NCBI GenBank assembly: GCA_018658105.1
Contig: JABHVW010000015.1
Span: 47,209 to 111,208 of the forward strand
Origin: Candidatus Peregrinibacteria bacterium
Lineage (GTDB): Bacteria > Patescibacteriota > Gracilibacteria > UBA1369 > 2-02-FULL-48-14
Direction: 5' to 3'
DNA length: 64,000 bases
The translations under genes and the position numbers were made by a program. Below, piece by piece: positions 3,001-57,470 of this stretch. The stretch's first letter is position 1. Each line of letters opens with the position of its first letter. Under the pieces are notes generated by a model, which did no database searches, was not told the origin of the DNA, and saw nothing but the letters and a program-made list of their open reading frames with translations.

Positions 3001-4689
3001 TGAAAGTTCCCCTCCACCTCCACCTCCACCATCGTAGGAATTGTCTCCTCCATCCCCCCCGTTGACTTCAAAATCTCCAGAACCAGATAAGGTACCCGTA
3101 ATAACGAGCTTAACGCTTCCACCAGATCCACCGCCCCCGACTTCAACACCACTTGTTCCTTCTCCAGCTCCTCCATTTGCCGAAATGGTACCCTCATTGG
3201 CTAGATCACCAGAAACAGTAATATTTACGGCTCCTCCACCAGTCCCTCCATTTGTAGTATTACTACTTCCGCCTCCTGATCCAAGTAGTACTGGAGTTAG
3301 AATATCTCCATGATGTACGCCTCCTGCACTACCAGCTTGAGACCCTGCGCCTCCTTCGCCTCCGTGTCCGCCTCCTCCTCCTGAATTTGCATGCTCTACA
3401 CCAGCAGAACTGTTGTCTTCACATGCATTGGTCGTGCTATTTGGCGCTACATCTGTTCCGCAACCCTCTGCGTCTGAACGAATGGCTCCGGCTGCTCCAA
3501 CTGTTACATCGTCTGTAACAGTGATGCTGTATAGATAACCATTTGTAACATCGTGCCCAATATTCAAAGTACCGTTTACCGTTAAGTCGTCTGCAACGGT
3601 GATTGAAGTGTCGTCGGCATAACCAGAATTATATTCAAATTTCATCATTGCTCCACTGTTGATGGTGAAGTCATTAAATGCGCATGTTCCACCACTACAA
3701 AAACCAGAAGTTCTTGCATGACTTGCATATGAGTTTCCTTCAAGGAAATAGACGTCATTTAGAGTGTTGTCTTTGAGTATAGCTGAACCATCGTCTCCAG
3801 CAGTTCCAATTCCTCCGCCTGTTCCTCCTGAAGGATCTAATTGACTTCCAATAGCTACTCCGATGCTGGTGATATCAAATATTATGTAAATAATTCCTCC
3901 ACTTCCTCCTCCACCATCCCAGGTTGAATCTGCTCCATTTCCACCAGTGGCTTCGAAATTTCCTGACCCAGACAATGTTCCACCAATATCTGCATAAACA
4001 CTTCCTCCAGCTCCTCCACCACCGACTTCGGTACCACTTGTAACTGTACCATCCCCTCCATTTGCTGAAATTGTTCCGTTGTTTGCTAAGTTTCCTGAGG
4101 CAGTTATATGAATAACACCTCCACCTGTCCCTCCATTTGACCCTTGACTACTACCGCCACCCGCTCCAAATTCGACAGGGCCAGATATGTTGCCGTGGTA
4201 GACTCCACCATCACTATTTGCCTGGGACCCAGTTCCTCCGTTACCTCCGTGCCCACCACCAGCACCTGTATTACTTGCTTCTTCACCCGCAGTGGTATTA
4301 TCTTCGCAAACATTTGTTGAGCTATTTGGACCTTCATCGGTTGTACAACCCTCTGAGTCTGCTTCGATTTTTGAACCTACATCAACAGTTACGTTTACAA
4401 ATTGCATCTCACCGGCCCACCCGTTTGTGGGGTCTTGGTCGATTGCTAAGGTTGTGCTGTTTGTTACGTGAAGACTGAGACTGCTGCAGTCAAAAGCTGT
4501 GCTATCAGCTGGAGTCCATGTCTCTGTCCCTCCACTATCGAGAGTAATTGTGCTGTCTGTTGCACCGTCGTCAGCGTCGGCTGCCGGACAAGATTGTGCA
4601 TGAGCTGATTCAGCCGTGAATAAGCTTAGGCACAGCGCTGCACAGCTTAATAAAGTAAAGGCGTAGAATTTAATTCTGAGTATTTTCAC
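1..4689 (-). CDS. Very large secreted Gly-rich repeat surface protein, partial (GTG start at 4689, runs off the left edge)
   Basis: Hand translation of the minus frame starting GTG at 4689 gives signal peptide MKILRIKFYAFTLLSCAALCLSLFTAESAHA, then Gly-rich modules. Long stretches were translated without finding a stop, ending in an acidic (GDE)n region. Missing from the ORF track because no stop lies in the window. Confidence 0.85.
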   Translation of the reverse strand, partial: MKILRIKFYAFTLLSCAALCLSLFTAESAHAQSCPAADADDGATDSTITLDSGGTETWTPADSTAFDCSSLSLHVTNSTTLAIDQDPTNGWAGEMQFVNVTVDVGSKIEADSEGCTTDEGPNSSTNVCEDNTTAGEEASNTGAGGGHGGNGGTGSQANSDGGVYHGNISGPVEFGAGGGSSQGSNGGTGGGVIHITASGNLANNGTISANGGDGTVTSGTEVGGGGAGGSVYADIGGTLSGSGNFEATGGNGADSTWDGGGGSGGIIYIIFDITSIGVAIGSQLDPSGGTGGGIGTAGDDGSAILKDNTLNDVYFLEGNSYASHARTSGFCSGGTCAFNDFTINSGAMMKFEYNSGYADDTSITVADDLTVNGTLNIGHDVTNGYLYSITVTDDVTVGAAGAIRSDAEGCGTDVAPNSTTNACEDNSSAGVEHANSGGGGGHGGEGGAGSQAGSAGGVHHGDILTPVLLGSGGGSSNTTNGGTGGGAVNITVSGDLANEGTISANGGAGEGTSGVEVGGGGSGGSVKLVITGTLSGSGDFEVNGGDGGDNSYDGGGGGGGELSILYGITAIGVAVEGQVAALGGSGNDVGTAGDAGSAIIKDTTTGDVYFLEGDAYISHAYSPSLCSSGTCAFTNDLSISSGASLKFEYNAGYANDTSITVANDLTANGSLLFGHDVSNGYNYTLAVTNDATIGASGAIRSDAEGCGASTTPNAATNACESYSDADHGNTGGGGGHAGEGGKGSHATSVGDDHHGDILTPIFFGSGGGSSNGTNGGTAGGVVIMTVAGDFSNGGVVSANGGAGEASGGTEVGGGGAGGTVSIIITGELSGAGTYEAKGGDGGDHSWDGGGGGGGAISVKYSTNTSGTDIEDKVAVNGGSGNDIGTVGDAGSAIIKDTTSGDVFFLEGDAYLSQTLTSTFCTGGSCAVTDDFKISSGAKLTVEHNGGPSNDLTLAVTNDFTLDGDLYFEHEVATGYISKLTVGGDMTVGASADIVSDSQGCGGSKDPNASSNACETYSDADHATTGGGGGHGGVGGSGGNGTTFGPTNDVLAAPVLFGSGGGSSEGTNGGIGGGVIDLNITGTFSNSGSLSADGGTGVATNCCEIGGGGAGGTITIVAGTLAGASTSFSVDGGAGGSSSWYGGGGGGGRMYFGYSTNSSTWLASLATATNAPGGSGPGGADDGADGTISTEVLNQAPSVTTVTASQATDGSGDVTITFIMDDEDDNDTLQAKVAYSDDGGSDAYAHDPTLSTADGETTATYGDPGIDNDAATYQVGTGAAYITSSSGANTVSIVWESKTDEASTSISDAKIQITPYDGSSAGTAAVSSDFTLDNAAPTAPTLSYSTPIGADSTIVSGSASEASANVYLDGVDTGTDVAGDGTWSHSVSPALGATTAYSFTIVDAYGNASSASVATIERFGASSSSSSSSSSSVVVVEPSEEPEEEAEEESEEDEEIIEEIEEELEEISDEEFSIAGEPEPDEEDGDEGDEGDEGDEGDEGDGGDEGDEGDEGDEGDGGDEGDEGDEGDGGDEEEVVEDDEDDEGNEVEEEEEVFAGLPFDFTPK

Positions 4690-7541: not shown

Positions 7542-8675
7542 ATGTTCAAGCGACCTATCCTCACACTATTCTTTGCCTGGTTTGCGTTCGTATCTACGAT
7601 GCTAGTTGGGATTCTTACAAATGAATCTGTGCAGGTTTCGGTATTCAACAAACAGTTAGAGTGGCTATCTGGAAATATGTATGTGGCTGAGATGAGAATT
7701 AATCCTGAAGGCTTTGATATGTTGGAGGGTTATGAGTTGTCTGATAATGCTTTTGTTGGGAAATATGGGACATGGAGTTTTTGCCAATATGACTTGCCTG
7801 AAACTACTGAATATGATGTGGATTTGATTACTGTTGAAGTTGATGAACGGATTGAGAGTGGACAAATATTCATGGTAGACATGTTGTTTGAAAATACTGG
7901 GAATACTCGTTTATTTGCTGGTGACAGCGAGTGTTACGATATGCCAGAATTAAATGTTGGAACTCAAAATGCAACAGACCGAGCAAGTGTGTTTGGAAGT
8001 GAAGAATTTGCAATTTCTGGTTGGGATGGCGCGAATCGTATAAAGATGGTGAATGAATTTGCTGATCCGGGCGAGGAGTTTCATGTAATTTTTCAAAGTA
8101 TTGCACCTGAACATGGTGATCATGCTGGAGATATTTATAGAGAATTTTTTCAACCTGTAATTGAAGGTGAAGGTTGGGTAGATGAGATGTTTGCATATGA
8201 CATTGAAATCGGCACTCCAAGTCAAGAAATGAAAGATGATATTTTCTTTGTAAGTGACCTTGCAGTTCCTGCTTCATTGCTTTCGGGGAAAGAGCGGAAT
8301 TTAGAAATCAACTTGGCTGAACAAAGGTTATATGCACAATTTGGAGATTTAAAAGTGTGGAGCATGGAAACATCTACTGGTGCATATGACACGCCAACTC
8401 CGCGTGGAAATTATAAAATTTTGAACAAACAGGAGCTAAGAATTGGTGGCGCAGCGCCACATTACAGAATGCCGTTTTGGCAGGGTTGGAGAACAGATGG
8501 ATATGGAATTCATGGTTTGCCATACCTTGGTGCGAACGATGGTGGATGGTTTTGGAAAGAAGCGGAAAACCATATTGGGATACCTGTGAGCCATGGATGT
8601 ATTCGTACTCCTGATAGAGATGCAGAAACGCTGCATGGATTTACAGTGATTGGGACTCCGATGTTTATTTATTAG
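7542..8675 (+). CDS. L,D-transpeptidase (YkuD) with N-terminal membrane anchor
   Basis: Catalytic motif HGLP…SHGCIRTPDRDAETLHGFTVIGTPM. Confidence 0.85.
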   Translation: MFKRPILTLFFAWFAFVSTMLVGILTNESVQVSVFNKQLEWLSGNMYVAEMRINPEGFDMLEGYELSDNAFVGKYGTWSFCQYDLPETTEYDVDLITVEVDERIESGQIFMVDMLFENTGNTRLFAGDSECYDMPELNVGTQNATDRASVFGSEEFAISGWDGANRIKMVNEFADPGEEFHVIFQSIAPEHGDHAGDIYREFFQPVIEGEGWVDEMFAYDIEIGTPSQEMKDDIFFVSDLAVPASLLSGKERNLEINLAEQRLYAQFGDLKVWSMETSTGAYDTPTPRGNYKILNKQELRIGGAAPHYRMPFWQGWRTDGYGIHGLPYLGANDGGWFWKEAENHIGIPVSHGCIRTPDRDAETLHGFTVIGTPMFIY

Positions 8676-10833: not shown

Positions 10834-10925
10834 GGAGAGGTGGCTGAGTGGTCGAAAGCGGCACCCTGCTAAGGTGTTAGTCTGAGCAATCGGGCTCGAG
10901 GGTTCGAATCCCTCCCTCTCCGCCA
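10834..10925 (+). tRNA. tRNA-Ser (anticodon GCT), CCA encoded
   Basis: Acceptor GGAGAGG/CCTCTCC, long variable arm, GGTTCGAATCC T-loop, anticodon loop CTGCTAA. Confidence 0.95.
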
Positions 10926-14510: not shown

Positions 14511-16274
14511 TCAACAGGGCTCCTTAGCTGCGGAGAGATGGCAGAGTGGTCGAATGCGATAGTCTTGAAAACTATTAGGCTGGCAACGGTCTCCAGGGTT
14601 CGAATCCCTGTCTCTCCGCCATCGAAGACGAATTGAGTCCAAAGCAGCACTTTGCCCGCTTTGGCATGCCCTTTCCGCTGGTTCTAAGCTAAGGTATTCT
14701 TTTTCAAGCTCTTTGTACCCTTCATCAATCGGTATGAGCCACTCATGAGGCTGCATTTTCAGCTTTCTGTCGCGGATGAGGAAGATTGAACCGAAGCCTT
14801 GGAGGATGGTTCTACGCCCTTCAAAGTCTTCCCGTGCGTAGTTTTGTGCTGCATAGGTGATGAAGTCGAAGGTCTTTTCTGTGAGTTCTAGCCAGTTCTC
14901 CGCCCTGTTATGTGTGTCTCCCAGCTCTTCTTTCAGCTTGGTGAGATTTTTCTGCAACTTCTTCTTTTCACGCAAGTATTCTTTGTCGTCTACAAGATGG
15001 CGGTAGCGCATCTGCGTTAGACTGTCGATTTCTTTCTGGGTAGTAAGTACGGCACGGGATTGCATCTCGTGTATCTTGCTACGTTGCTGGATTTCACTAT
15101 CGTTGGACTTATTTAGCATTTCAATCGCCCACTCTTTGAACTGTGGGAGAATCGTGTAGCTTGCCATTTCAGTTGCCATTGCCTTCTTCAGTTCACGTTC
15201 TTCAATAGACCTCTGCTTGCAGTTCGCATCCTTTTTGTTGTGGGTACAATGATAGAAGGTGTACTCCTTGATTTCGCCCGTGCTCTTGATGGTTTTCTTT
15301 TTATGTTGAGCCGTAACATTCCCTGCGCACTCTCCACAAGTGAGAAGTGGCTTAAAGCAGAAGTCGTACTTCTTGGCTCGTGGATTGCCTTTTTTGCCAA
15401 GCATTCTTTGCACCCTGTCGTATTCCTCAAGTGTGACCATTGGCGTGTGTGTGCCTTTGGTCCATGTGCCGTCTTGTTGCTTAATTAAGCCCGCATAAAA
15501 TTCGTTGCTGAACATACGATAGATGCCACTTCGACTAAGAGGTTTGTCACCTGTCTTCAGCGTTTTACGTGTTCGGTAGCCCCATTCGTCATTGAGCTTT
15601 TTTAGGATTTGTGGCGGTGTGTAGCTGCCTGTGAGCATCAAGTCCCAGCACTTCCGCAGTACAGTAAAGCGCTTCTTGTCTACCTTGATTGTTTTCATCC
15701 CCTTTGGACTGATGTAGTCATTAAGCCAGCCTTGAGCAGTTCGATTAGGACGGATTCCTATTGTGAGTTTGTCGTTTAGCCCGCGCTTCACATCCTTGCT
15801 TAGCTTGGAAGAAGAGTACTGCGATTGCGAGAGTGCCATCTGGAGCATCATGATTCCCTCGGGAGAATTGTCGAAGTTGTATGAACCAAACTTCAAGTCC
15901 TTTATGACTCCTGTACGAACCAGATAGGTGATTGTGGCTGCATCAATTTCGTTACGAGAAAGTCTGTCTGGATGCCACGCTATAATTCCGTCTGCTTCAC
16001 CCGCTCGAATGCGCTCAATCATATCTAGGAAGACGGTTCGCTCGTATGGCTTGAAGGCACTTTTACTTTCTTCCAAAACATCAACAACCTTCAAGTCTGG
16101 GAATAAGCTTGCAGCTCTCTCTTTCTGTGATCCGATAGAAAGGATTTGTCTTGTTTCATCCTCCTCAGACTTTCGAACGTAGAGGAAGTATTTGTAGTTT
16201 GGATTGATTTCTTGCATGAGTCTTTGATTAGCCACCCAAATAGGACGGTCCTGAATCGTCCAACTCATGCGCAA
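14511..16274 (-). CDS. Large serine recombinase (resolvase + recombinase + zinc ribbon); C-terminal part translated from antisense of tRNA-Ser
   Basis: YFLYVRKSEEDETRQILSIGSQ, GIIAWHPDRLSRNEIDA, CGECAGNVTAQHKKK…YHCTHNKKDANC; tail RWRRDRDSNPGDRCQPNSF is antisense tRNA. Confidence 0.92.
   Translation of the reverse strand: MRMSWTIQDRPIWVANQRLMQEINPNYKYFLYVRKSEEDETRQILSIGSQKERAASLFPDLKVVDVLEESKSAFKPYERTVFLDMIERIRAGEADGIIAWHPDRLSRNEIDAATITYLVRTGVIKDLKFGSYNFDNSPEGIMMLQMALSQSQYSSSKLSKDVKRGLNDKLTIGIRPNRTAQGWLNDYISPKGMKTIKVDKKRFTVLRKCWDLMLTGSYTPPQILKKLNDEWGYRTRKTLKTGDKPLSRSGIYRMFSNEFYAGLIKQQDGTWTKGTHTPMVTLEEYDRVQRMLGKKGNPRAKKYDFCFKPLLTCGECAGNVTAQHKKKTIKSTGEIKEYTFYHCTHNKKDANCKQRSIEERELKKAMATEMASYTILPQFKEWAIEMLNKSNDSEIQQRSKIHEMQSRAVLTTQKEIDSLTQMRYRHLVDDKEYLREKKKLQKNLTKLKEELGDTHNRAENWLELTEKTFDFITYAAQNYAREDFEGRRTILQGFGSIFLIRDRKLKMQPHEWLIPIDEGYKELEKEYLSLEPAERACQSGQSAALDSIRLRWRRDRDSNPGDRCQPNSFQDYRIRPLCHLSAAKEPC
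14532..14621 (+). tRNA. tRNA-Ser (anticodon TGA), CCA encoded; integration target of element 1
   Basis: GGAGAGA/TCTCTCC acceptor, CTTGAAA anticodon loop, variable arm, GGTTCGAATCC. Confidence 0.95.
14612..14621 (+). repeat. Attachment core (tRNA side), element 1
   Basis: CTCTCCGCCA, duplicated at 26111..26120. Confidence 0.75.
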
Positions 16275-16381
16275 ACATGATTTTGGCAGAACCGCCCATG
16301 ATTGGGCGAAACGCTAAACAAAGTTTGCGACGAATTCGAGCTGGACGATTGCTTGAATTATATAGGATTTTTGATGAAAAG

Positions 16382-17515
16382 CTATAGCGATTCGCCCTCC
16401 TTACTCTCCTTTATGGCTTCTGCAAGGGCTTGCTTCATTTCTTCTTTACTGAAACCATACTTGCCCTCCACCTCCTTCTCTCCAACCTTGATGTTTTTCA
16501 CGATCTCAATTTGTCGTTCTTCCTGAATATGCCCGTATCCGTATGAGCCAAAGGTAGTTCCCGTATTCTCATGCCCGAGATTTTGGCTGATTGCTTTCTT
16601 CTCTTCCTCTGTAAGGCGAGTTTTGGCAAACTCTTTGACTACTAAGTGCCTAAAAGTGTGAGGGTGGTAGTACGGTACTTCGGCATTCAGGAAATGCTTC
16701 TGGAAAATCTTACGGACCGAATTGGAGCTTGCCCAGAAGAGGGGTTCAACTTCACCAGTATTGTAGTAAGAAATGTTCTCCTTACCGTTCTCGATTATGG
16801 ATTGTGGGAAGATTGGATCATCGGCTTTGAAGCCTTTTTTCCTTTCAAGGTACTTGTACCAGTCGAGGAAGTAGTGAATGGCTTGCTCGTACTCGATTGG
16901 AAAGAAGGTAGTAACGATGCGCTTGGAGAACTTGGTCTTCACGCCAAACTTTGGGTTCTGGTCCACCGTCAGCGTGTCAGGCTCAAATGCTTTCATGGGC
17001 AGACTGTAAATGGCGGATATGCGTGCTCCAGTAAGTAAAGTGAAGCAAAGGAGCGCACGGTCACGTTGATCTACCTCCGTTTGTACATCAATGGATTCAA
17101 TGACTTTGATAACATCTTCAAGCGGCGGAATCTTCCGCTTGTTGGGCTGAATTGCTATGCGTGTTTCCTTCTTGGAAAGCGAGAGAAACTCCACAACTGT
17201 AGGATTGATTTTGGATTTGTAATGAGGCTGCATTGAGAGCCACTCGAAGAATAGTCTAAGCCGACGTAAAACGTGATAGCGATACACAAGTGAAAGAGCT
17301 TCTCCCTTGCGGTTAGTACGGTTCTTGAGCCAATCCTTGAAAGCTCTTACCTGTTGCTTCCCGAAGCCTGCGAAGGCTTTGTTGTCGTTGGACTCTTGCC
17401 ATAGAAGTACAGCACGTTCGTGAGCATCCACGGAATTGTTGGCGAATCCTTTGACCTCTTTGAGGTAGAGGAAGAATTGCTTCTTCATTACCTCGTTCTG
17501 GAATGATTTTTTCAT
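16382..17515 (-). CDS. Tyrosine recombinase/phage integrase (the track start at 17629 is an alternative)
   Basis: TLLTGARISAIYSLP…HPHTFRHLVVKEFAKTRL…LGHENTGTTFGSYGYGH (R…HxxR…H/Y layout). Confidence 0.85.
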   Translation of the reverse strand: MKKSFQNEVMKKQFFLYLKEVKGFANNSVDAHERAVLLWQESNDNKAFAGFGKQQVRAFKDWLKNRTNRKGEALSLVYRYHVLRRLRLFFEWLSMQPHYKSKINPTVVEFLSLSKKETRIAIQPNKRKIPPLEDVIKVIESIDVQTEVDQRDRALLCFTLLTGARISAIYSLPMKAFEPDTLTVDQNPKFGVKTKFSKRIVTTFFPIEYEQAIHYFLDWYKYLERKKGFKADDPIFPQSIIENGKENISYYNTGEVEPLFWASSNSVRKIFQKHFLNAEVPYYHPHTFRHLVVKEFAKTRLTEEEKKAISQNLGHENTGTTFGSYGYGHIQEERQIEIVKNIKVGEKEVEGKYGFSKEEMKQALAEAIKESKEGESL

Positions 17516-17600
17516 TGTAGAAAATGTTAATTGGCTAAAGTGTTGATTTGGGACATTTAGATGAGAGTGAATAGAATCACTTAATCCTTTTTGACGCCCT

Positions 17601-17978
17601 CTAAAGTAGTCGTGCGATTTTACCGCCACACTCTTTACATTTCGCGTAAAGTATTTCCTGATCTCTATTCAGCTTGCCGATCTTTTTACCTGTTTTTTCG
17701 ACCTTTTGAGTGCCGTGTTTACCTTCAACTGGCTTCCTACACACAAGGCAGTAGTATTCGTTTGGGCGGAGCTTCACTTGAGTTGCTTCACGCTTTGCCT
17801 TGATGAAGGCTTTCAGGTCCTTGCCCATGATGAGGCGAGGCTTTTGCTTGGGGTCGAGGAGGGACAAGCCACCCTTAATCCAGCGAAATATGGTCTTTCG
17901 ATTGACCTCCAGTAATGCACTTGCCTCCTTTGGTGTATACGCAGACTTGGACCGAATTTTTGATAGATTGTATTTCAT
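17601..17978 (-). CDS. HTH (excisionase/MerR-like) protein with C-terminal zinc ribbon
   Basis: AYTPKEASALLEVNRKTIFRWIKGG…; CxxC…CxxC at the C-terminus (CLVCRKP…CKECGGK). Confidence 0.75.
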   Translation of the reverse strand: MKYNLSKIRSKSAYTPKEASALLEVNRKTIFRWIKGGLSLLDPKQKPRLIMGKDLKAFIKAKREATQVKLRPNEYYCLVCRKPVEGKHGTQKVEKTGKKIGKLNRDQEILYAKCKECGGKIARLL

Positions 17979-18169
17979 GATTGATTCGGATTAAGATCTA
18001 GCATTGAGAGTTGACCCTTGGAGGGCTTAGGCAGGGGACGGTAGACGAGCCTCATCATCCCGAGCAGTTTCAAGGCTTTTTCATGTGCCTCTTCCTGACT
18101 TATCTCGGTTTGAAAGCTGTCTTTCCATAGCTGCCTAAACTGCTCCAAATCTTGTGGTTCGATCTTCAT
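17975..18169 (-). CDS. Small conserved element protein (start MKIEPQDLEQFRQLWKDSF)
   Basis: ATGA overlaps with both neighbours; similar to 24472..24627. Confidence 0.7.
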   Translation of the reverse strand: MKIEPQDLEQFRQLWKDSFQTEISQEEAHEKALKLLGMMRLVYRPLPKPSKGQLSMLDLNPNQS

Positions 18170-18420
18170 CTCGTTTGGTCGGGTGATTGAGGCAAACACT
18201 CTTTATAGGTGTTCAGTAAAGCCCTTGCGTTAAGGAAGAGCTTGTCTTCCCAGTAGAGTTCGACCGACTCTAGCAGTTTCTTTGAACCGTGGAAGGTGAA
18301 GTAGACCTTCTCCGAGTTGGCATGGGAGCAACTTTGAAGTCTGAATTCCTTGACGATGAGCGCGCTTGCGAGTGCTCGATCATGGGTTATAAAGGGTAGG
18401 TTGTAGTTTGGTGCTGACAT
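18166..18420 (-). CDS. DUF5659-like small protein (copy 1)
   Basis: ALASALIVKEFRLQSC…KVYFTFHGSKKLLESVELYWEDKLFLNARALLN pattern. Confidence 0.6.
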   Translation of the reverse strand: MSAPNYNLPFITHDRALASALIVKEFRLQSCSHANSEKVYFTFHGSKKLLESVELYWEDKLFLNARALLNTYKECLPQSPDQTR

Positions 18421-18431
18421 AGCATTTTGGG

Positions 18432-18665
18432 TTAGAAGTCTGAATGTAATCGTGATTTAAGAAGCTTCTGTTGCATTAGAAACTTACGAGGTTCGACCCG
18501 TAGGTCGCCTCGCCAAAAAGCGGCGATAGCTTCATCCAGCTTTTTGTTCTGTTCAAAACAGAACTCAACACGATTTGGATTGTTTCTATCAATGCGGGTG
18601 CATGTAAAATTCAGGTAGCTCAAAACGAGAATGAGTCCCCAGTCAGAAGTTGAAAGTTCTTGCAT
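18432..18665 (-). CDS. DUF5659-like small protein (copy 2)
   Basis: LILVLSYLNFTCTRIDRNNPNRVEFCFEQNKKLDEAIAAFWRGDLRVEPRKFL, similar layout to copy 1. Confidence 0.6.
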   Translation of the reverse strand: MQELSTSDWGLILVLSYLNFTCTRIDRNNPNRVEFCFEQNKKLDEAIAAFWRGDLRVEPRKFLMQQKLLKSRLHSDF

Positions 18666-18778
18666 TTTTCATTTATTAAATTCTAGTAGCTTAATTTTGA
18701 ATCTTTCAAATACTTAAAAAAGCCCTATTTCTAGGACTTTTTATGCTTTATTTTGGCTTATTTGCCACTTATTTTGAC

Positions 18779-19933
18779 TTATTTGAACCTAAAAGCTGTA
18801 ACTGCAATTTCATCGCCCTGTAAATCAAAAAACTTTTCTGATTCAGGAAAGCCAAACCAGCCACGTAAACTTCTTCTAAAGTTACCCATGTTTTTCTTTA
18901 ATTTGCGTCTATCTTGGTCTAGTCTCAAATCATATCCCAAATCAGAAACTTTAACTTTAACATGTTGGCGAGCCTTTTTTAGTAGCTGCAATGGAAAACC
19001 ACTTTTCAGATGGTGAGATTTCTCTTCATAATGAACTGACCCATTTTTGTCGAAAACTATCAATTTGTCTGCATTTTTAATCTGGTAGAACCTGTTTTTG
19101 ACTTTCTCCATATCTACTGCCCAAGGCACATCTCCATCGAAAACACCTGAAAAATCTTCAAAGATTTTGATCCTGAAATAAGGCTCTTCTATGTATTTGG
19201 GTAGTGAGAAATCTAAAACTTCTATTACCTCGATTGCTTCCAAAAAAAACACTACAGAAATAAAATCTGCTTCGTCAGAAGCTAACCACTCAACCCTCAA
19301 ATCTTTATGAGAATACTTGGACATCAAGCCTGATAAGGTCACCAAAAATGAAGAGAGTTGTTCTTTAGGCTGTAAGATATTTTTGTACTTCCAACTTGAA
19401 CGCCTAAGTTCATCGTTCATCCATTTTTCAAGGTAATCATTGAAGTACATTTGAATCTTATCTTGGTCGATTTGTAAAAAATATCTGTATTCAAAACTAG
19501 GACGACCTCCCTCTTCTATTCCATCTCGATGATCCAAATCGTAAAAAATAATAACTTCTTCCTCTTTTTTTATGACTGACTCGGGAGAGTAATCGAATGT
19601 TTCCTCAATAGATGAGTACTCAACATCTCTTGTTTCGTTATCGCTGATTATCAGCTCCCACTTTTCGACAACCAAGCGTTTAACAAGGTTATACTTCAAA
19701 CAGGTTTGCAGGTGGTCGTCAGCCTTCTTTTGCTCATCAAAATCATCCTCTTCTACAAAATGACCCCAATATGTTATTTCTGCATCAGAACTGGAAGGAG
19801 AGTCTTCTGGTGCAAGTACAGCACTTGTTTTCAACCTTCCCATTACATTCCACAGGAACAGTAGTCTTTCGCCGTCTCCAAAGGAATAGGCTATTTTAGG
19901 CTTTTTGAGCGAAGAAGTCATATACATATACAT
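18779..19933 (-). CDS. Hypothetical protein, 384 aa
   Basis: Long ORF in element 1 cargo; no recognised motif. Confidence 0.7.
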   Translation of the reverse strand: MYMYMTSSLKKPKIAYSFGDGERLLFLWNVMGRLKTSAVLAPEDSPSSSDAEITYWGHFVEEDDFDEQKKADDHLQTCLKYNLVKRLVVEKWELIISDNETRDVEYSSIEETFDYSPESVIKKEEEVIIFYDLDHRDGIEEGGRPSFEYRYFLQIDQDKIQMYFNDYLEKWMNDELRRSSWKYKNILQPKEQLSSFLVTLSGLMSKYSHKDLRVEWLASDEADFISVVFFLEAIEVIEVLDFSLPKYIEEPYFRIKIFEDFSGVFDGDVPWAVDMEKVKNRFYQIKNADKLIVFDKNGSVHYEEKSHHLKSGFPLQLLKKARQHVKVKVSDLGYDLRLDQDRRKLKKNMGNFRRSLRGWFGFPESEKFFDLQGDEIAVTAFRFK

Positions 19934-20027
19934 CTATTTGCAGGCATTTTACACGAAAAAGCGAACTGCTGCTGGATGGAACAATACAAATGTTTCCTTG
20001 TTGGCAACAAAATGTTAGAATCCCTGC

Positions 20028-20157
20028 GTATACCCAATTTTGTCTCTTTGTTATTTCGTTTTCTTACGAGTAGACCCGCTCATCAGCAACCCCTTATTGG
20101 GCAGCGATGGGCGGCGTACCAATAAGGTTACTCGTAAGGGCAAACGATTGGGTATAC
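20028..20157. promoter_or_regulatory. Three-tier nested inverted repeat upstream of the Mod gene
   Basis: GTATACCCAAT 20028..20038 / ATTGGGTATAC 20147..20157; CTTACGAGTA 20063..20072 / TACTCGTAAG 20129..20138; CCTTATTGG 20092..20100 / CCAATAAGG 20119..20127. Confidence 0.75.
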
Positions 20158-20205
20158 TACGCCGTCCTTTTTTGTAGGCACGGCGCAAACATAACTCAAT
20201 TGTGT

Positions 20206-21885
20206 ATGCCTTCGTTTCACTTCAAAGGAAAATCCTTCCTTCAGAATTACCACCATTCGGTCAAATTTCATAAGCTTGACCCTACAAAAAGCAAAGGAAC
20301 AAGTAAGAAGCCATCTCTAAGTGACAACCTCCTAATCCAAGGGGACAACTTGAAGGCGCTCAAGGCTTTGCTTCCTACTCACGCTGGGAAAGTTAAGTGC
20401 ATCTATATTGACCCACCATACAACACAGGAAATGAAGGTTGGAAATACAACGACAACGTGGCATCGCCTATGATTCAAGAATGGCTTGGCAAAGAGGTAA
20501 ACATTGATGATCTCACACGTCACGACAAGTGGTGCTGCATGATGTACCCGAGGCTCATTTTACTACGCGAACTTCTTACTGATGATGGTGTAATTTTCAT
20601 AAGCATTGATGACAATGAAGTCCACCGTTTGAGAATGATGATGGATGAGATTTTTGGGGATGAAAACTTCATTACTGAAGTGATTGCGCAGCTTAACCCA
20701 AGGGGAAGAACTTTGGATAGATTCTTTGCAAAGACTCACGAGTACGTCCTTGTTTATGGCAAAAATGCAACGAATGAAAGCTCTATCAATCTCTTAACAA
20801 AGACAGGTAAAGCCGTTGATGAGTACAACAAAAAAGATACTGTCGGTCCATATAGAGAGCTTGGGCTTAGAAACAGAAATCCCGTCTTCAACAGAGGCAA
20901 TCGTCCGAATCTTTTCTATCCACTATACGTTGACCCTCAAACTGGAGGTATAAGCCTGAAAAAGACCGAACAATTCACAATCGAAGCACTTCCAAGAAAC
21001 TCAAAAGGAGAAGACGGCTGTTGGACTTGGGGTAAAGACAAAGTGTCAAAGGAAGGCAATCTATTGATTGCCAATACAACACGAAACGGCGAGTGGAGAG
21101 TCTTTAGAAAAGACTACTTGTATGGGGCGGATGGTGAAACTGCAAAGACGAAAGCAAAGGCATTGTGGACGGAGAAATCCATCAACAATCAGAATGGTAA
21201 ACAGATTTGTAATGAAATTTTCGATGGCTGTCCTTTCGACTTCCCTAAATCTATTGATCTGGTTAGAAAGTGTATCGGATTAGGAGCTGGCAAAGATGAC
21301 CTCATACTAGATTCTTTCGCAGGTTCAGGGACAACAGCACATGCGGTCCTTGCCCTGAATCAAGAGGATGGAGGTAATCGTAAGTTCATCTTGGTAGAGT
21401 GTGAAGACTACGCCGATGAAATTACAGGAGAGCGTATTCGTCGAGTCATTAAAGGTGTGCCAGATGCAAAGGATGAAGCCCTACGCAAAGGACTTGGTGG
21501 TTCATTCTCGTACTATGAGCTTGGGGAAGAACTTGAGATGGATAAGATTCTTGAAGGTACGGACCTGCCAAATTATGAAGAACTGGCTCGCTATGCTTTC
21601 TTTACATCTACGGGAGAAAACTGGAGTAAATCTAAGATGGAAAAGGATGCGTACTACATTGGTTCATCAAGCAGCTTTGAAGTGTACATGCTCTACGAAG
21701 CAGACAAAAAGAAACTCAAGGAGCTTGCTCTCAATTTGGACTTTGCAATGAAGGTCCAAAACCGTTTCCCAAACAAACAGAAGCTCATCTTTGCTCCTGC
21801 CTGTTTCATGGAAGAGTACCACCTCAAGGAGTACGGTATTCGCTTTGCCCAGCTCCCTTTTGAAATTTACCGAATGGCTGAATAA
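20206..21885 (+). CDS. Type III restriction-modification methyltransferase (Mod)
   Basis: DPPYNTGNEGWKYND followed later by FAGSGTTAHAV (beta-class order); adjacent to Res. Start set to ATG 20206 because the longer track ORF begins inside the inverted repeat. Confidence 0.92.
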   Translation: MPSFHFKGKSFLQNYHHSVKFHKLDPTKSKGTSKKPSLSDNLLIQGDNLKALKALLPTHAGKVKCIYIDPPYNTGNEGWKYNDNVASPMIQEWLGKEVNIDDLTRHDKWCCMMYPRLILLRELLTDDGVIFISIDDNEVHRLRMMMDEIFGDENFITEVIAQLNPRGRTLDRFFAKTHEYVLVYGKNATNESSINLLTKTGKAVDEYNKKDTVGPYRELGLRNRNPVFNRGNRPNLFYPLYVDPQTGGISLKKTEQFTIEALPRNSKGEDGCWTWGKDKVSKEGNLLIANTTRNGEWRVFRKDYLYGADGETAKTKAKALWTEKSINNQNGKQICNEIFDGCPFDFPKSIDLVRKCIGLGAGKDDLILDSFAGSGTTAHAVLALNQEDGGNRKFILVECEDYADEITGERIRRVIKGVPDAKDEALRKGLGGSFSYYELGEELEMDKILEGTDLPNYEELARYAFFTSTGENWSKSKMEKDAYYIGSSSSFEVYMLYEADKKKLKELALNLDFAMKVQNRFPNKQKLIFAPACFMEEYHLKEYGIRFAQLPFEIYRMAE

Positions 21886-21887
21886 GT

Positions 21888-24461
21888 ATGCTTCTACTCA
21901 AAGAATACCAAATCAATGCAAAGAATGTGATGGAGCAGTACTTCAAGCAGCTCTCTTTCCATGTGGATAAAATGCAAAGCATTCCTGAAGATATGCTGCA
22001 AGATTTGGGGTTCGAGTACAACTGGGCTGAAAAAGCATGGCATGACTTGTACCCCGATGGCACAACCAACAACGAATACAAAAGCAAGAAGACGGGGCAA
22101 GGTTTGGTTTGCCCTAATTTCTGCCTCAAAACCCCCACAGGAGGTGGAAAGACGCTAATGGCGACCTACGCCGTGGAATTCTACCTAGAGCACCTTAGAA
22201 AGCAGAAGACTGGCTTCGTCCTTTGGGTAGTACCGAGCGAACAAATCTATGCACAAACTTTGAGTGCTCTTCAAGACCGCTCTCATCCATACAGGGAGAG
22301 GTTGGATGCTGTTTCTGGGCATAGAGTCAAAGTCATTACAAAGACGGACCGCTTTTCTCCTAATGATATGAAAGAGAACCTTGTGGTCCTCGTGATGATG
22401 CTGCAATCTTTCTCAAGAGATAAGTTCAAGAAAGCAGACCTGAAGTTTTTCAAAGACAACGGTAAGTTTGAGGAGTTCTTCCCATTGGAAACGAATCAGA
22501 AGAAGCAGCAAGAACTTTACGAAGCCTATCCCAACCTAGACCTTGAGCAGGAGTTTGGCAGTTTGCTTGGAGGGAAGGTGAAAACGTCTTTTGGAAATGT
22601 GGTGAAAATACTACAACCACTCATCATTTTGGATGAAGGGCATAAGGCTAAAACTGAAATTGCGAGTGAAGCCATCAAGGAATGTAATCCATCTCTCGTG
22701 TGTGAGCTGACTGCCACCCCTACCGAAAAGGCAAACGTGCTGTTTTCTGTAGCGGGACGAGAGCTTGAGAAAGAAGATATGATTAAGCTGGACCTGAACC
22801 TGATTGAGAAAGATACGGTTGAGTGGAAGAGTCTTCTGAATTACAGCGCAGAACATCTGGATATGCTTCAAGAAAAAGCATCCACTTATCAAAAGAAAAC
22901 TGGCATCTACATTCGTCCCATCAACCTGATTCAAGTTGAAGCTACGGGTAAAAACCAACGTAAAGAGGGGAAAATCCATGCTGAAGATGTAAGGGAACAT
23001 CTCATTGAGACAGGGCTTGTTAGACCCGAAGAGATACGTGTAAAAAGTAGTGTTAAGAACGAGCTTGAGGGCGAAGACTTACTCTCTTCCAAGTCTCCCG
23101 TGCGCTTCATCATTACAAAGCAAGCACTTCAGGAAGGTTGGGATTGCCCCTTTGCCTACTCACTCACGGTGCTAGGAGGTTCTAGGTCCAAACGCGCACT
23201 TACGCAGCTTGTGGGGCGTGTACTTAGACAGCCCTATGCACGAAAAACCAATGTGAAGGAGCTGGATGAAAGCTATGTGTTTTGTTTAAGAGATTCTTCA
23301 AAGGACCTAGTGAAAGCTATACGGAGCGGCTTTGAATACGATGGCATGGGAGACCTTGCTATGCGTATTGCCAGCACCAGTAAAAAGACTGACCCAGACC
23401 TAGGGGAGCGCAAGTTGCAAATTGTTCGTAAGGAATACAAGCCTACTCTTGTAGAATTCAGCTTACCCGCCTTTGTGGTGAAAGATGTACTGTCTGAAGA
23501 CGGCACTAGAGTTGTAGACCCAACTTTGGACATAACGCCTTATATCCCATTCCATGAAGTAGACCTCTCTCCCCTTGAGCAGGTTCATATCAACAAGGAC
23601 GGTAAGGGTGTTGAAAAAACCGTATCCATTGGATTTAGCCGTGAAATTGCTGAAGACACCGAGGAGTTTTTGGAAATTGTTGAAATGCGAAAGCGTGTGG
23701 CTATGAAATCATCTTTCAGAAAGAGCTTCTGGGTGCAGAACATTCTAGAATACGTGCCAAACCCTTGGACCGCCCATGATCTGGTTGAGAGAGCCTTGAG
23801 CTTGTTCAAAAGCATGTTCTCCCTTGAAGACATTGAAAGTAATCAGGTCTTTTTACTGGATGAACTTCGTAAAATCTTAGGAGGTGCGGGAAGCAAAGTT
23901 GGTGAAATAGACCGACTTGCTCGAAAGGTTTTTGTAGACCGTATGGATTCAGATGAGATTCGTTTCGTTCCTAAGTTCAGCTTTAAGAAGGTACTCACAC
24001 CTGAACACTACTTTGAAAAGGAAGCACGAAGACATAGCTTGAAAGTGAAGAAAAGCCTCTTTGAACCCGTAATAAAGGAGGGTCTGAATGCACTTGAGGA
24101 TAAGGCGGTGTGGCGCATGGAAGATGGGAAAGAAACCTATTGGTGGTATAGAAATAAGGCTAGGAAGGATTTCTTCTTAGTGGCATGGAGGAAGAACCGC
24201 TTCTACCCCGATTTCATCCTGACGCTGCAAGAAAAGAACCCGAAGAGCTTTGATAAAATCTTACTCATTGAAACTAAAGGTGGGCATCTGCTTGGCAATA
24301 CAGATACCGAGTATAAGCGAGAGTTGACCAATTTGTATCAACGGAAAATTCAAAGAAGCTGGTCCAGCAATGAAGCCTTCCCAGTTATGCCAAAGGAAAC
24401 GATGTTCAAATTTGTTGAAGAGCAAAATCTTGAAAATGAGATGAATGAGATTTTTGCATAA
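21888..24461 (+). CDS. Type III restriction endonuclease subunit (Res)
   Basis: Walker A TPTGGGKTLMATYAVE, LDEGHK box, TKQALQEGWDCPFAYSL, ALTQLVGRVLRQP, C-terminal YPDFIL…LLIETKG (PD-(D/E)XK). Confidence 0.92.
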   Translation: MLLLKEYQINAKNVMEQYFKQLSFHVDKMQSIPEDMLQDLGFEYNWAEKAWHDLYPDGTTNNEYKSKKTGQGLVCPNFCLKTPTGGGKTLMATYAVEFYLEHLRKQKTGFVLWVVPSEQIYAQTLSALQDRSHPYRERLDAVSGHRVKVITKTDRFSPNDMKENLVVLVMMLQSFSRDKFKKADLKFFKDNGKFEEFFPLETNQKKQQELYEAYPNLDLEQEFGSLLGGKVKTSFGNVVKILQPLIILDEGHKAKTEIASEAIKECNPSLVCELTATPTEKANVLFSVAGRELEKEDMIKLDLNLIEKDTVEWKSLLNYSAEHLDMLQEKASTYQKKTGIYIRPINLIQVEATGKNQRKEGKIHAEDVREHLIETGLVRPEEIRVKSSVKNELEGEDLLSSKSPVRFIITKQALQEGWDCPFAYSLTVLGGSRSKRALTQLVGRVLRQPYARKTNVKELDESYVFCLRDSSKDLVKAIRSGFEYDGMGDLAMRIASTSKKTDPDLGERKLQIVRKEYKPTLVEFSLPAFVVKDVLSEDGTRVVDPTLDITPYIPFHEVDLSPLEQVHINKDGKGVEKTVSIGFSREIAEDTEEFLEIVEMRKRVAMKSSFRKSFWVQNILEYVPNPWTAHDLVERALSLFKSMFSLEDIESNQVFLLDELRKILGGAGSKVGEIDRLARKVFVDRMDSDEIRFVPKFSFKKVLTPEHYFEKEARRHSLKVKKSLFEPVIKEGLNALEDKAVWRMEDGKETYWWYRNKARKDFFLVAWRKNRFYPDFILTLQEKNPKSFDKILLIETKGGHLLGNTDTEYKRELTNLYQRKIQRSWSSNEAFPVMPKETMFKFVEEQNLENEMNEIFA

Positions 24462-24471
24462 TGCCTTGCCT

Positions 24472-24627
24472 ATGAAGCTTTCGGACGAATCAGTATCAGA
24501 GTTTCAAAGGATTTGGAAAGAAGAACACAACGAAGACATTTCGAAAGAGACAGCACGGGAATATGGAGAAAACCTTGTGGGACTTTTCAAATTATTGACT
24601 GAAATAGATAGAGGTGCAAACTCCTAA
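24472..24627 (+). CDS. Small conserved element protein (MKLSDESVSEFQRIWKEEHNEDISKETAREYGENLVGLFKLL)
   Basis: Similar to 17975..18169; start ATG 24472 preferred. Confidence 0.6.
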   Translation: MKLSDESVSEFQRIWKEEHNEDISKETAREYGENLVGLFKLLTEIDRGANS

Positions 24628-24745
24628 CCTTACACCTTTGAAGCCTCCAGATATGGCTTGCTACAGCCATTTGTTAAAACGTGGATATGTCGAAAAGGTA
24701 ATCTGACTATGGACAAGATATTCATTATTGGAGTATAATTATAGT

Positions 24746-24803
24746 AGCTCATCTACCAAGTTGTAGAAGGAGTTACGAAATCGTCTCTCACGAGGCGATT
24801 TTT
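24746..24803 (+). ncRNA. Candidate short RNA: promoter + about 58-nt transcript + terminator
   Basis: TGGACA 24710..24715, 18-bp spacer, TATAAT 24734..24739; hairpin AAATCGTCTCTCACGAGGCGATTTTT 24778..24803. Confidence 0.35.
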
Positions 24804-25273
24804 GCTTGATAGGCTTTGTACTTTCTTTCAAATTTCCTTTTAGAGTGATTGTGCTCAATATGAAATGCAGTCCATGGGATAATATAATCTCCTCTATCTA
24901 CTAGGACCACTAGGTATTCCCATTCACCGTAACAAAGATGAATACGTTCTTCAGACCCCCTAAACTCAATCCATAGTTTAATGGACTCATGCGGGTGACC
25001 TTCAATAATAGGCCTTATCCATGATAGACGTTCACACCGCCTTAAATTTGGGGTTCTTTCAGCTTCAATATCACCTTCACTTATGAAATGCCAAAATGTG
25101 GCTTCTTTCCCTTGTATAATTGGATGCTTTTTTAGCCCTAATCTCTTGCCTTGAAAAGAAGGCGTCGAATCAATGAAATCTTTTGTAAAACATGCGTGAA
25201 GAGCTGATAGATATTCATCCCAGCTCCCGCCATAGTCTTCAAGACAAATTAAATTAGGTAATATCATTGTCAT
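24788..25273 (-). CDS. Hypothetical protein, 161 aa, co-directional with DUF3800 gene
   Basis: Overlaps the 3' end of the DUF3800 ORF by 20 bp. Confidence 0.65.
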   Translation of the reverse strand: MTMILPNLICLEDYGGSWDEYLSALHACFTKDFIDSTPSFQGKRLGLKKHPIIQGKEATFWHFISEGDIEAERTPNLRRCERLSWIRPIIEGHPHESIKLWIEFRGSEERIHLCYGEWEYLVVLVDRGDYIIPWTAFHIEHNHSKRKFERKYKAYQAKIAS

Positions 25274-25973
25274 ATAAATGTGGACTCCAAATGAGAATAT
25301 TAAACTTATTTTCTTTCATAAGCGTGTTTTTTCTAAGAGAATACCCAGATCTTTTTTGTATTCTCTCAATCAATGCTTGTTTAGCTGCACTACTTTCTAA
25401 ATTGCGGTGCAGGTAACTGATTGCACCAATCAATATGTCAACAATCTGCATCATCTCAATTTCATGAGATCGAACTAACTGCAATCTTTCAATAATTTTT
25501 TTGTCAAAATCATATACAGAATTACATAATACTTGATGTAATTTTTTAACCTTATCTCCTCCTAGTGTATCTTTTATGTCAATGTAAGTGCGATACCTTG
25601 CGTCTGGCTTCAAGATAGCCTTTAACATGTTGAAGTACATTTCATAATACCAATCATTATGGTTTTGATTGAATTTAGAGTGAACAATGAGACTTTTATC
25701 TGGCACGACTAAACATCTGAAATGGAAATCATCATCGTCAAAAAAATAATCGATAATATTTCTGTACAGATCTACTTTTGAAGGCGATACCTTTGTCCAT
25801 TTCATTTCGTACCACCTACTTACTCCATGCTGTTCCTTTATTTCTCGGATACGCTCAGCAACTTCCCTTGCCTTATCTAGAGGCAACCAAACTGCCCCAA
25901 GGACCATAGGTTTTTGACCATCATTCTCTAAATGACAACTTTCATCACAGTAAATATTGTAAATTCTACTCAT
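25254..25973 (-). CDS. DUF3800-like protein
   Basis: N-terminal IYNIYCDESCHLENDGQKPMVLGAVWLP and later QIVDILIGAISYLHRN. Confidence 0.75.
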   Translation of the reverse strand: MSRIYNIYCDESCHLENDGQKPMVLGAVWLPLDKAREVAERIREIKEQHGVSRWYEMKWTKVSPSKVDLYRNIIDYFFDDDDFHFRCLVVPDKSLIVHSKFNQNHNDWYYEMYFNMLKAILKPDARYRTYIDIKDTLGGDKVKKLHQVLCNSVYDFDKKIIERLQLVRSHEIEMMQIVDILIGAISYLHRNLESSAAKQALIERIQKRSGYSLRKNTLMKENKFNILIWSPHLYDNDIT

Positions 25974-26110
25974 ATGGACATGATAATCGCATCAGGATTG
26001 GCAGTCCAGAAGATAAATTGGAAATTAAAAACCTCTCACTAGAACTGTTGTAGCAAACACATTGAACTGTGTATGATTAGCCTCGATGAGAGTTCTAACG
26101 TCGTCCACGA

Positions 26111-26120
26111 CTCTCCGCCA
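26111..26120 (+). repeat. Attachment core (distal), element 1
   Basis: CTCTCCGCCA, identical to tRNA-Ser 3' end incl. CCA. Confidence 0.75.
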
Positions 26121-26135
26121 ATACTTACGAAAAAC

Positions 26136-26162
26136 AAAGACCGCCACTGTGGCGGTCTTTTA
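26136..26162. terminator. Bidirectional intrinsic terminator; probably the original tRNA-Ser terminator displaced by element 1
   Basis: AAAGACCGCCACTGTGGCGGTCTTT. Confidence 0.85.
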
Positions 26163-44446: not shown

Positions 44447-44522
44447 GCCATCTTAGCTCAGTTGGTAGAGCAACGGATTTGTAACCCGTAGGTCACCAGT
44501 TCGACTCTGGTAGATGGCTCCA
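44447..44522 (+). tRNA. tRNA-Thr (anticodon TGT), CCA encoded; integration target of element 2
   Basis: GCCATCT/AGATGGC acceptor, TTTGTAA anticodon loop, GTTCGACTC T-loop. Confidence 0.95.
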
Positions 44523-46144
44523 TACAATGTTTTCAACTTATTTTTAGAATCCAGCTCATCCTTAACGGATTTAGGGACACGGAGCTCAAGTTGTACATTG
44601 GTCCCGTCGAAGGTGATGGACTTAATTATCTCCTGTAGAAGTTCACGCTTTCTTTCGTATGAAGGCTCTTTCAGACTACTCTTGTACTTCTTGGCCATGT
44701 CTTTGAGTGAAGCGATCTTTTCGCCCTTGTCTTGCTCTACAGTCAGCTGGGAGTTAATTGCCTCAAGTTGTTCTGCGATTTCATCAGCTTCATCATCGAT
44801 GAGCTTTCTTTCTCCTTCTAATTCATCAATCTCGAATACCCCTCGCATGTAAGCTTCCTTTGCTCGTTTTCGCTTGTGCTGTAGCTCAGACTTACGATTT
44901 TCTAAAATCTCTCGTTCATCCATAAGTGACTGATAGTAGGAATCTTTCTTCAGGTCCTTTTCCATCTTCTCTAAAACACCTTTGGGCCTTTTTAAGATAT
45001 CTTCAACGATTTTCCACGTTGGCTCTGCGATGAGTTTTTCAGAGATATGAGGCACTTTACAGGGAGTCGTTGTCTTGTGCTTCGAGTACTTCCCGCACCT
45101 GTAATTCTTAGTCTTTTTAGCAGACATATAGCCTACAAAGTTGGACCCGCATGCGCCACACTGAATTTTCCCTGAGAGCAAGTAAATGTGCTTGGCATTA
45201 TTGGATTCTTTTTTCTCCTTTGCCATCTTCTCTTGGGCTTTTTTAAAAGTTTTCTGGTCGATGACTGCTGGGCATGAAAAATCTACCCATTCAGATCTGG
45301 GCTTCTCAACACGCTTTCCATTCTTGTCCTTTCCCGTTTTGTTGTAAAAATAAACACCCGTGTAGTGAGTTGCCCCCAGAATAAGCGTCACCTTTCTTCG
45401 ATCCCAAAAATGCTCTGGGTTTTTAGTTCTTTTGCGACCCCTCCTGGTACTGTCATGCGTTACTCGTAGCTTTGTCAGCTTTTGAGCAATTTGGGACCTG
45501 GTGTAACCCTGTTTTACGTACCAAACATATATTCTCCTTACCCATTGCTCTTCCTTCTTGTTCACTATCAGCCTTTGGTCCTTAACGTCGTAACCAAAAG
45601 GCACATTTCCACCTACATAATTTCCATCTTTTGCTGCTGCGAGTCTTCCTTCCGAAGTCCTAGATATGATGAGAGAGCGTTCAAACTCAGCCAGCATACC
45701 GAATAGTGTGAGCATCATCTGTTTTTGCGCTCTTTCCATTTCTGGTGCTAAATCTGAAACTGTTGTGTCCAGCGATTCCGTAACAGAAGTAAAGCCAACA
45801 TCACTTTTACCCATCTCCTTTACCGCTTCCAAAAGACCCAGGGTGCTCCTGTAAAGGCGATCCACTTTCATCACCGCTACGACATCCACTCGTTTATTTC
45901 GCACGTCTCTCATTAACCTGTCGAAGGCAGGTCTACTTTTTAAGGCACCTGAATAACCATCATCTTTGTAGACAAGTTTTTCATCGAATACCCAGCCGTG
46001 GGATTTCTCTCGTGCCTCGATGTATCCCTTGAGCTTGTTGAGCTGAACTTCAAGACCATAACCCTCCTTAGCTTGTTCGTTCGTGCTCACACGTATGTAG
46101 CACGCTATACGCTTTTTACTTGGCTTTTTTATATCTGTTGGCAT
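44453..46144 (-). CDS. Large serine recombinase (resolvase + recombinase + zinc ribbon); C-terminal tail translated from antisense of tRNA-Thr
   Basis: IACYIRVSTNEQAKEGYGLEVQ, KVDRLYRSTLGLLEA, CGACGSNFVGYMS; tail YGAIYQSRTGDLRVTNPLLYQLS is antisense tRNA. Confidence 0.93.
   Translation of the reverse strand: MPTDIKKPSKKRIACYIRVSTNEQAKEGYGLEVQLNKLKGYIEAREKSHGWVFDEKLVYKDDGYSGALKSRPAFDRLMRDVRNKRVDVVAVMKVDRLYRSTLGLLEAVKEMGKSDVGFTSVTESLDTTVSDLAPEMERAQKQMMLTLFGMLAEFERSLIISRTSEGRLAAAKDGNYVGGNVPFGYDVKDQRLIVNKKEEQWVRRIYVWYVKQGYTRSQIAQKLTKLRVTHDSTRRGRKRTKNPEHFWDRRKVTLILGATHYTGVYFYNKTGKDKNGKRVEKPRSEWVDFSCPAVIDQKTFKKAQEKMAKEKKESNNAKHIYLLSGKIQCGACGSNFVGYMSAKKTKNYRCGKYSKHKTTTPCKVPHISEKLIAEPTWKIVEDILKRPKGVLEKMEKDLKKDSYYQSLMDEREILENRKSELQHKRKRAKEAYMRGVFEIDELEGERKLIDDEADEIAEQLEAINSQLTVEQDKGEKIASLKDMAKKYKSSLKEPSYERKRELLQEIIKSITFDGTNVQLELRVPKSVKDELDSKNKLKTLYGAIYQSRTGDLRVTNPLLYQLS
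44504..44523 (+). repeat. Attachment core (tRNA side), element 2
   Basis: ACTCTGGTAGATGGCTCCAT. Confidence 0.85.
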
Positions 46145-57450: not shown

Positions 57451-57470
57451 ACTCTGGTAGATGGCTCCAT
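57451..57470 (+). repeat. Attachment core (distal), element 2
   Basis: ACTCTGGTAGATGGCTCCAT, identical to 44504..44523. Confidence 0.85.

Follow-up and report, generated by a model that had tools for sequence, protein, structure and literature searches.

Serine integrases are in wide use for genome writing, and the basis of their one-way action is a central question. Genomic islands mobilized by tyrosine integrases, tycheposons among them, insert at the 3' ends of tRNA genes, carry defence cargo and have short non-autonomous relatives. In mycobacteriophage integration-dependent immunity (BPs and others), attP lies inside the repressor gene and the tail is an ssrA-like degron (PMC4557955, PMC9934374), while the archaeal suicidal integrases (SSV1, pTN3, pT26-2) are tyrosine recombinases that are split in two by integration (PMC8371274). 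The C-terminus of serine integrases sits close to the direction-setting coiled coil, and a directionality factor fused at this C-terminus drives attL x attR recombination (PMC5737554).

The locus described here lies in a 64,000-nucleotide stretch of a Candidatus Peregrinibacteria genome (the window; the host genome is 1.12 Mb in 15 contigs). As in the mycobacteriophage switch, the attP core lies in coding sequence, with a frame that is open in both states, and integration exchanges or removes a C-terminus, which could thereby report the integrated state; unlike that switch, the gene encodes a recombinase rather than a repressor, and the tail is a conserved, predicted helix without a common terminal degron. 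The archaeal suicidal integrases are similar in that attP falls within the integrase gene, tRNA genes are frequent sites, and integration alters the integrase, but the serine recombinase keeps all of its domains and loses just ~28 C-terminal residues. Insertion site, defence cargo and short non-autonomous relatives are shared with the tyrosine-integrase islands and tycheposons, which differ in recombinase class; here, recombinase, att site and antisense tRNA overlap in frame. In a limited search of open papers we found no report of serine recombinases with an integration-swapped tail, and papers behind subscription may describe int genes that overlap attP.

Element 1 and its attachment sites

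Features of the two elements in the window are given in Table 1 (asterisks in sequences denote stops). The minus-strand recombinase ORF of element 1 spans 14511..16274, with a likely ATG start at 16217. It crosses the core as TGG CGG AGA G, just as the first-pass annotation had read it, and ends WRRDRDSNPGDRCQPNSFQDYRIRPLCHLSAAKEPC*, antisense to tRNA-Ser(tga); its final 36 codons (WRRDRDSNPG...) are antisense tRNA-Ser plus flank. The 10-bp core is found at 14612, 26111 and 10916 (+), against a chance expectation of 0.01 copies per 64 kb, and the copy at 10916 forms the 3' terminus of a further tRNA-Ser (gct). The core is flanked by arms that repeat each other, imperfectly and in inverted orientation (TTCGTCTTCGA - core - TCGTGGACGAC, 8/11), which fits the expectation for a serine-integrase attP.

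Joining 14622 to 26110 over the core yields a conceptual attP that reads WRR-VVDDVRTLIEANHTQFNVFATTVLVRGF*, and the circular-form recombinase would terminate WRRVVDDVRTLIEANHTQFNVFATTVLVRGF*. The open frame and WRR tail predicted earlier thus stand, while the end of the tail, placed at about 26024, is corrected to a stop at 26027..26025. The attP junction of element 1 was absent from all sequences examined; the tail swap in this element rises above chance because 89 of 94 relatives share its frame and attP tails are conserved, as described below.

The flank beyond attR is probably the former downstream side of tRNA-Ser. Within the element, the tyrosine-type recombinase adjoins an HTH protein. 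The PDC-M04A/B pair is near the type III restriction-modification genes and, in the circle, would lie directly downstream of the native recombinase tail, where it is possibly co-transcribed with the recombinase.

Table 1. Coordinates of features in the window.
Feature	Position	Strand	Remarks
Element 1, integrative	14622..26120	.	~11.5 kb, defence cargo; at tRNA-Ser(tga) 3' end
Large serine recombinase, integrated-state ORF	14511..16217	-	Resolvase, Recombinase and Zn_ribbon_recom domains
tRNA-Ser(tga)	14532..14621	+	Target gene, kept intact
att core at attL	14612..14621	+	CTCTCCGCCA, tRNA 3' end including CCA
attP left arm	14622..14641	-	...GGACTCAATTCGTCTTCGA, within recombinase coding sequence
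Second recombinase of element 1	16382..17629	-	Tyrosine-type
Type III restriction-modification genes	20107..24461	+	mod, res
PDC-M04B / PDC-M04A	24788..25973	-	Candidate defence pair (DUF3800)
Native recombinase tail	26025..26110	-	VVDDVRTLIEANHTQFNVFATTVLVRGF*, in recombinase frame only once excised
attP right arm	26091..26110	-	TCGTGGACGACGTTAGAACT, codes VVDDVRT of tail
att core at attR	26111..26120	+	
Host flank	26121..26161	+	Terminator-like hairpin (AAAGACCGCC..GGCGGTCTTT)
Element 2 recombinase	44453..46144	-	Second subfamily, into antisense tRNA-Thr, different phase

Recombinase class and predicted structure

Judged by its domains, the element 1 enzyme is a large serine recombinase. Its Pfam matches are PF00239 (4e-14), PF07508 (4e-6) and PF13408 (7e-7), each past the cut-off, its relative of solved structure is A118 integrase (6dnw/4kis, E 3e-10), and a short-core attP with inverted arms adjoins the gene. 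Enzymes of this class recombine attP with attB unaided and excise with the help of an RDF; no RDF was recognized here. With A118 integrase (4kis/6dnw) and models of CcrB and XisF it shares the Resolvase, Recombinase and zinc-ribbon domains, the coiled coil and an inverted-arm attP; unlike these, it has a C-terminus that is ~40 residues longer up to the core and then continues through it, and it targets tRNA 3' ends.

The AlphaFold2 models, whose confidence is moderate (pTM 0.42-0.45), have two extra C-terminal helices. In the window protein, the last of these (518-534) stops at the core, the model is ordered up to residue 535 and the antisense-tRNA tail, with pLDDT <50, is predicted to be disordered. 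In the model of L103, the tail-bearing example, the last helix continues through the core into the tail.

Frame conservation among relatives

Genome searches and fetched regions provided 94 non-redundant recombinase loci beside a tRNA. The MAGs with the closest recombinase relatives carry the labels Gracilibacteria and Peregrinibacteria, i.e., Patescibacteria. In 89 of the 94 loci the recombinase ORF enters the antisense tRNA 3' end in the same frame, in which the anti-CCA is TGG (Trp), or the equivalent where CCA is not encoded; an earlier, smaller set gave the same frame in 54/54 loci. The target tRNAs are of 18 types (Ser, Gln, Gly, Lys, Glu, Phe, Asn, Trp, Asp, Arg, Cys, Thr, Leu, Pro, Val, Ile, Tyr and His). 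The distance from zinc-finger motif to core takes 26 values, with the frame kept in 85/87 loci, so that some 25 or more length changes respected the frame. Two loci taken as off-frame, L147 and L151, were rejected: they have stops before the tRNA and no real overlap. L078, at first sight frame-broken, aligns codon by codon (AGG AAC for AGA ACT).

Antisense-tRNA tails of these relatives range from WSG* (3 aa) to >300 codons. Recombinase ORFs that have no neighbouring tRNA mostly terminate near ...EEKRELLxxLKSKLxLxDG, which identifies the core-crossing C-terminal stretch as an addition of the tRNA-targeting forms. In its tail swap element 1 is no special case: the pattern holds throughout the family.

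Element 2 (12.9 kb; copies of its 20-bp core lie at 44504..44523 and 57451..57470) carries a recombinase of a second subfamily, with a predicted attP tail of YGAIYQSKFHFVQLALSSSLGHG*. Its subfamily keeps a phase of its own in 18 of the 20 relatives that have a nearby antisense tRNA. Two subfamilies, each frame-locked in its own phase, argue against accident.

Native tails and coding constraint

For elements with both ends in hand, attP-form tails were read after the second core had been located; with a shared core of just 7-10 bp, attR is missed in most elements by core search alone. The rebuilt attP tails include WQRVVDKVRTLILTHSTEFSLFAKTSLAL* (L063), WWRLVEEVRTALQSSDMIPYIPKLI* (L073), WQGVIEQVRTLLTTPAS* (L093), WRAIVELTATRIS* (L060), LRGVRDYIRTEMREKGNKY* (L086) and WGELIDDVRTILLQLHYGNV* (L162), and have in common the motif W-x-x-h-h-[DE]-x-[VI]-R-T. 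This motif follows the element's own core in 21 of 221 matches and the cores of other elements (the control) in 101 of 7087, a comparison in which the tail plays no part in the selection. Once 356 genomes had been searched with the pattern and the fetched loci scanned, the set came to 53 distinct sites.

The R position of the motif may also be A, T or M, within a shared DNA hexamer. Beyond codon ~12 the tails vary between subfamilies (10-45 aa), and L187 has a stop immediately after W. Tail ends include VRGF, SLAL, PKLI, KGFA and QFNLL, and many are hydrophobic or small residues; no common terminal degron was found among the attP tails examined. The tails of L073 and L188, which use code 25 (TGA = Gly), stop at the same codon (PKLI*).

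The attP arm reaches to about codon 10 of the tail, and conservation of the first ten codons, which overlap it, may therefore be at the level of DNA. We thus analyzed the codons beyond. In the WIN-like group (WIN, G298, G240, G264, G265 and G266), dN/dS for codons 11-27 is 0.31 in frame 0 versus 0.77 and 0.91 in the shifted frames, and the BLOSUM sum is 696 versus 308±112 (sd) and was reached in 0/2000 column shuffles, a permutation that retains sequence relatedness and takes columns as exchangeable. For the code-25 group (codons 11-23) the sum is 191 versus 20 (0/2000 shuffles), and in both groups frame 0 is stop-free and the best among the six frames. Half of the WIN-like tails (G264, G265 and G266) sit in recombinase-free cassettes, and their coding signal must be inherited; with only WIN, G298 and G240 kept, the result is still 0/2000 shuffles.

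Synonymous, frame-specific conservation accordingly extends 13-17 codons beyond the arm in two groups. An explanation of the tail by DNA constraint only was kept for codons 4-10 and rejected from codon 11 onward in both groups, and the tail is very probably under selection as protein. Conservation passes the core, where the proposed swap would have been undercut by a conserved C-terminus ending before it.

Natural junctions

The first-pass annotation had suggested searching for relatives that end in native-like tails. Three such junctions were found. The L103 recombinase, on a virus contig, ends ...SWLHELYIFRTL* (...WLHELYIFRTL*), and that of L053 reads ...WLSEWDTIRTLVHNALF at the contig end, neither running into a tRNA. 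In L152 (G130:C32) two tandem elements lie at a tRNA-Asn: the tRNA-proximal recombinase ends WLPRLDSNQ*, and the older recombinase, 14.9 kb away, crosses the same core into the arm of the newcomer (WLPRLGVIRTFFLIS*). These junctions indicate that genuine recombination swaps the tail, and L152 demonstrates that tandem insertion can give a tail back to an older copy.

The circular contigs that the same suggestion envisaged did not turn up: phage and plasmid records gave distant matches only (24-26% identity), and an attP in a closed circle was not among them. L103 was considered as a closed circle and rejected, because its first gene runs off the contig. A search of viral contigs with a single recombinase protein gave no relative, and one with an alignment gave two. 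Two IMG/VR contigs, L103 and L104, resemble inoviruses (Zot-like ATPase, replication initiator) and encode recombinases of the element 1 family; L104 lies in a tRNA-Thr gene to which ARAGORN assigns an intron.

Recombinase-free cassettes

Cassettes that have no recombinase carry the same att arm motif at their borders. At tRNA 3' ends, successive arms of this signature border recombinase-free stretches of one or two genes, as in L091 (sites at 3098, 4645, 6117 and 8015) and L213 (G254:C5; 133, 1232, 3531 and 4945); further cassette loci are L192/L214 (G138), L092, L241, L231 and L237. These are apparently integron-like cassette arrays moved in trans by serine recombinases, an action that the lack of a recombinase implies. 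They differ from integrons, which have a tyrosine integron integrase, attI and folded attC, in that the arrays here use a serine-recombinase att arm. In L230 (G266:C33, ~8355..8453) a cassette junction retains no more of a WIN-like recombinase than its final 33 codons, followed by the core and native tail, as if arrays arise by deletion of everything except the att arm.

Discussion

That integration trades a native tail for an antisense-tRNA one, as originally proposed, is almost certainly real, and by dN/dS and column shuffles the native tail is a conserved protein segment. Whether the swap also changes recombinase activity or direction we consider an even question. A role for the tRNA-encoded tail, suggested at the outset, finds no footing: anything from three residues to hundreds is accepted and the tail is predicted to be disordered. 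Since its length and sequence are arbitrary, this tail is not the signal, and it looks like junk.

We lean slightly toward a state switch in which the circular-form enzyme needs the tail, and its loss on integration alters or silences the enzyme. The recombinase gene ends inside its own attP, whose 5' half codes the end of the protein body; W-R-R comes from the core, and the 3' half with ~60 bp further codes the conserved C-terminal tail. Made from the excised circle, the enzyme would have this tail, lengthening its last helix. Recombination between the core and the tRNA-Ser 3' end leaves the tail at the far end (attR), and the integrated gene runs into the antisense tRNA, acquiring an arbitrary, probably unstructured tail. 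If the circular-form enzyme does need the native tail, the step concerned is most likely attP x attB integration; loss of the tail may then silence the enzyme or free it for excision, in which case the gene would be a built-in integration-state (directionality) switch. The C-terminal position near the coiled coil and the effect of the fused directionality factor (PMC5737554) favour this switch.

A passive overlap would dispense with any effect on the enzyme: attP would lie at the gene's 3' end for compactness, and the tail would be a by-product of the DNA-binding constraint on the right arm and of common descent. The arm motif does border recombinase-free cassettes, the integrated state tolerates antisense tails of any length, and the R/A/T alternatives at one tail position follow a DNA hexamer. 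Against this stand the synonymous, frame-specific conservation 13-17 codons past the arm in two groups, the end codon shared by L073 and L188 (PKLI*) and a frame that has survived many linker indels; we give the passive reading about one chance in four. Antisense-tRNA peptides are frequent annotation artefacts, and the overlap could in principle be a misassembly, or else a spurious read-through of a gene that really stops ahead of the core; such a reading is contradicted by the same frame in 89/94 loci of independent assemblies and by the linker-length data, nearly all loci have no in-frame stop before the core, and we regard it as extremely improbable.

One branch of the favoured switch is a lock of suicidal type, in which the enzyme does nothing without its tail, integration thus switches it off, and exit needs a tail-bearing relative in trans or a tandem insertion that re-supplies the tail. 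It would parallel the archaeal suicidal integrases (PMC8371274), the older recombinase of the L152 pair regains a motif tail from the newcomer, and recombinase-free cassettes imply action in trans, but just the last ~28 of ~560 residues change, the catalytic and DNA-binding domains are all intact and integrated ORFs stay open. This branch is on a par with the passive overlap, and is similarly doubtful. Rather less probable still is that the native tail is a proteolysis signal, so that the circular form turns over quickly and the integrated form persists, or vice versa. The mycobacteriophage BPs repressor is an exact precedent for such a stability switch (PMC4557955) and many tails end in hydrophobic or small residues, yet the tails have no common terminal degron and conservation lies in the helix, not at the extreme end.

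For annotators, the swap is a warning that deposited (integrated) sequences of such recombinases have a non-native C-terminus. The tail and arm also provide a sequence signature for locating attP sites and mobile cassettes in Patescibacteria, whose mobile elements are poorly known. A broader and more tentative reading, which we judge possible but somewhat against the odds, is that whole clades of tRNA-targeting serine recombinases in Patescibacteria are self-reporting, the right half of attP being a conserved directionality tail that is removed by integration and restored by excision or tandem insertion, and that the same att signature mobilizes recombinase-free cassettes into tRNA-gene arrays, a serine-recombinase counterpart of integrons. 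If the switch is true, recombination itself would edit the C-terminus of the enzyme, beside the coiled coil thought to set direction, in a simple single-protein switch, and the tail swap may be the element's means of sensing that it has landed.
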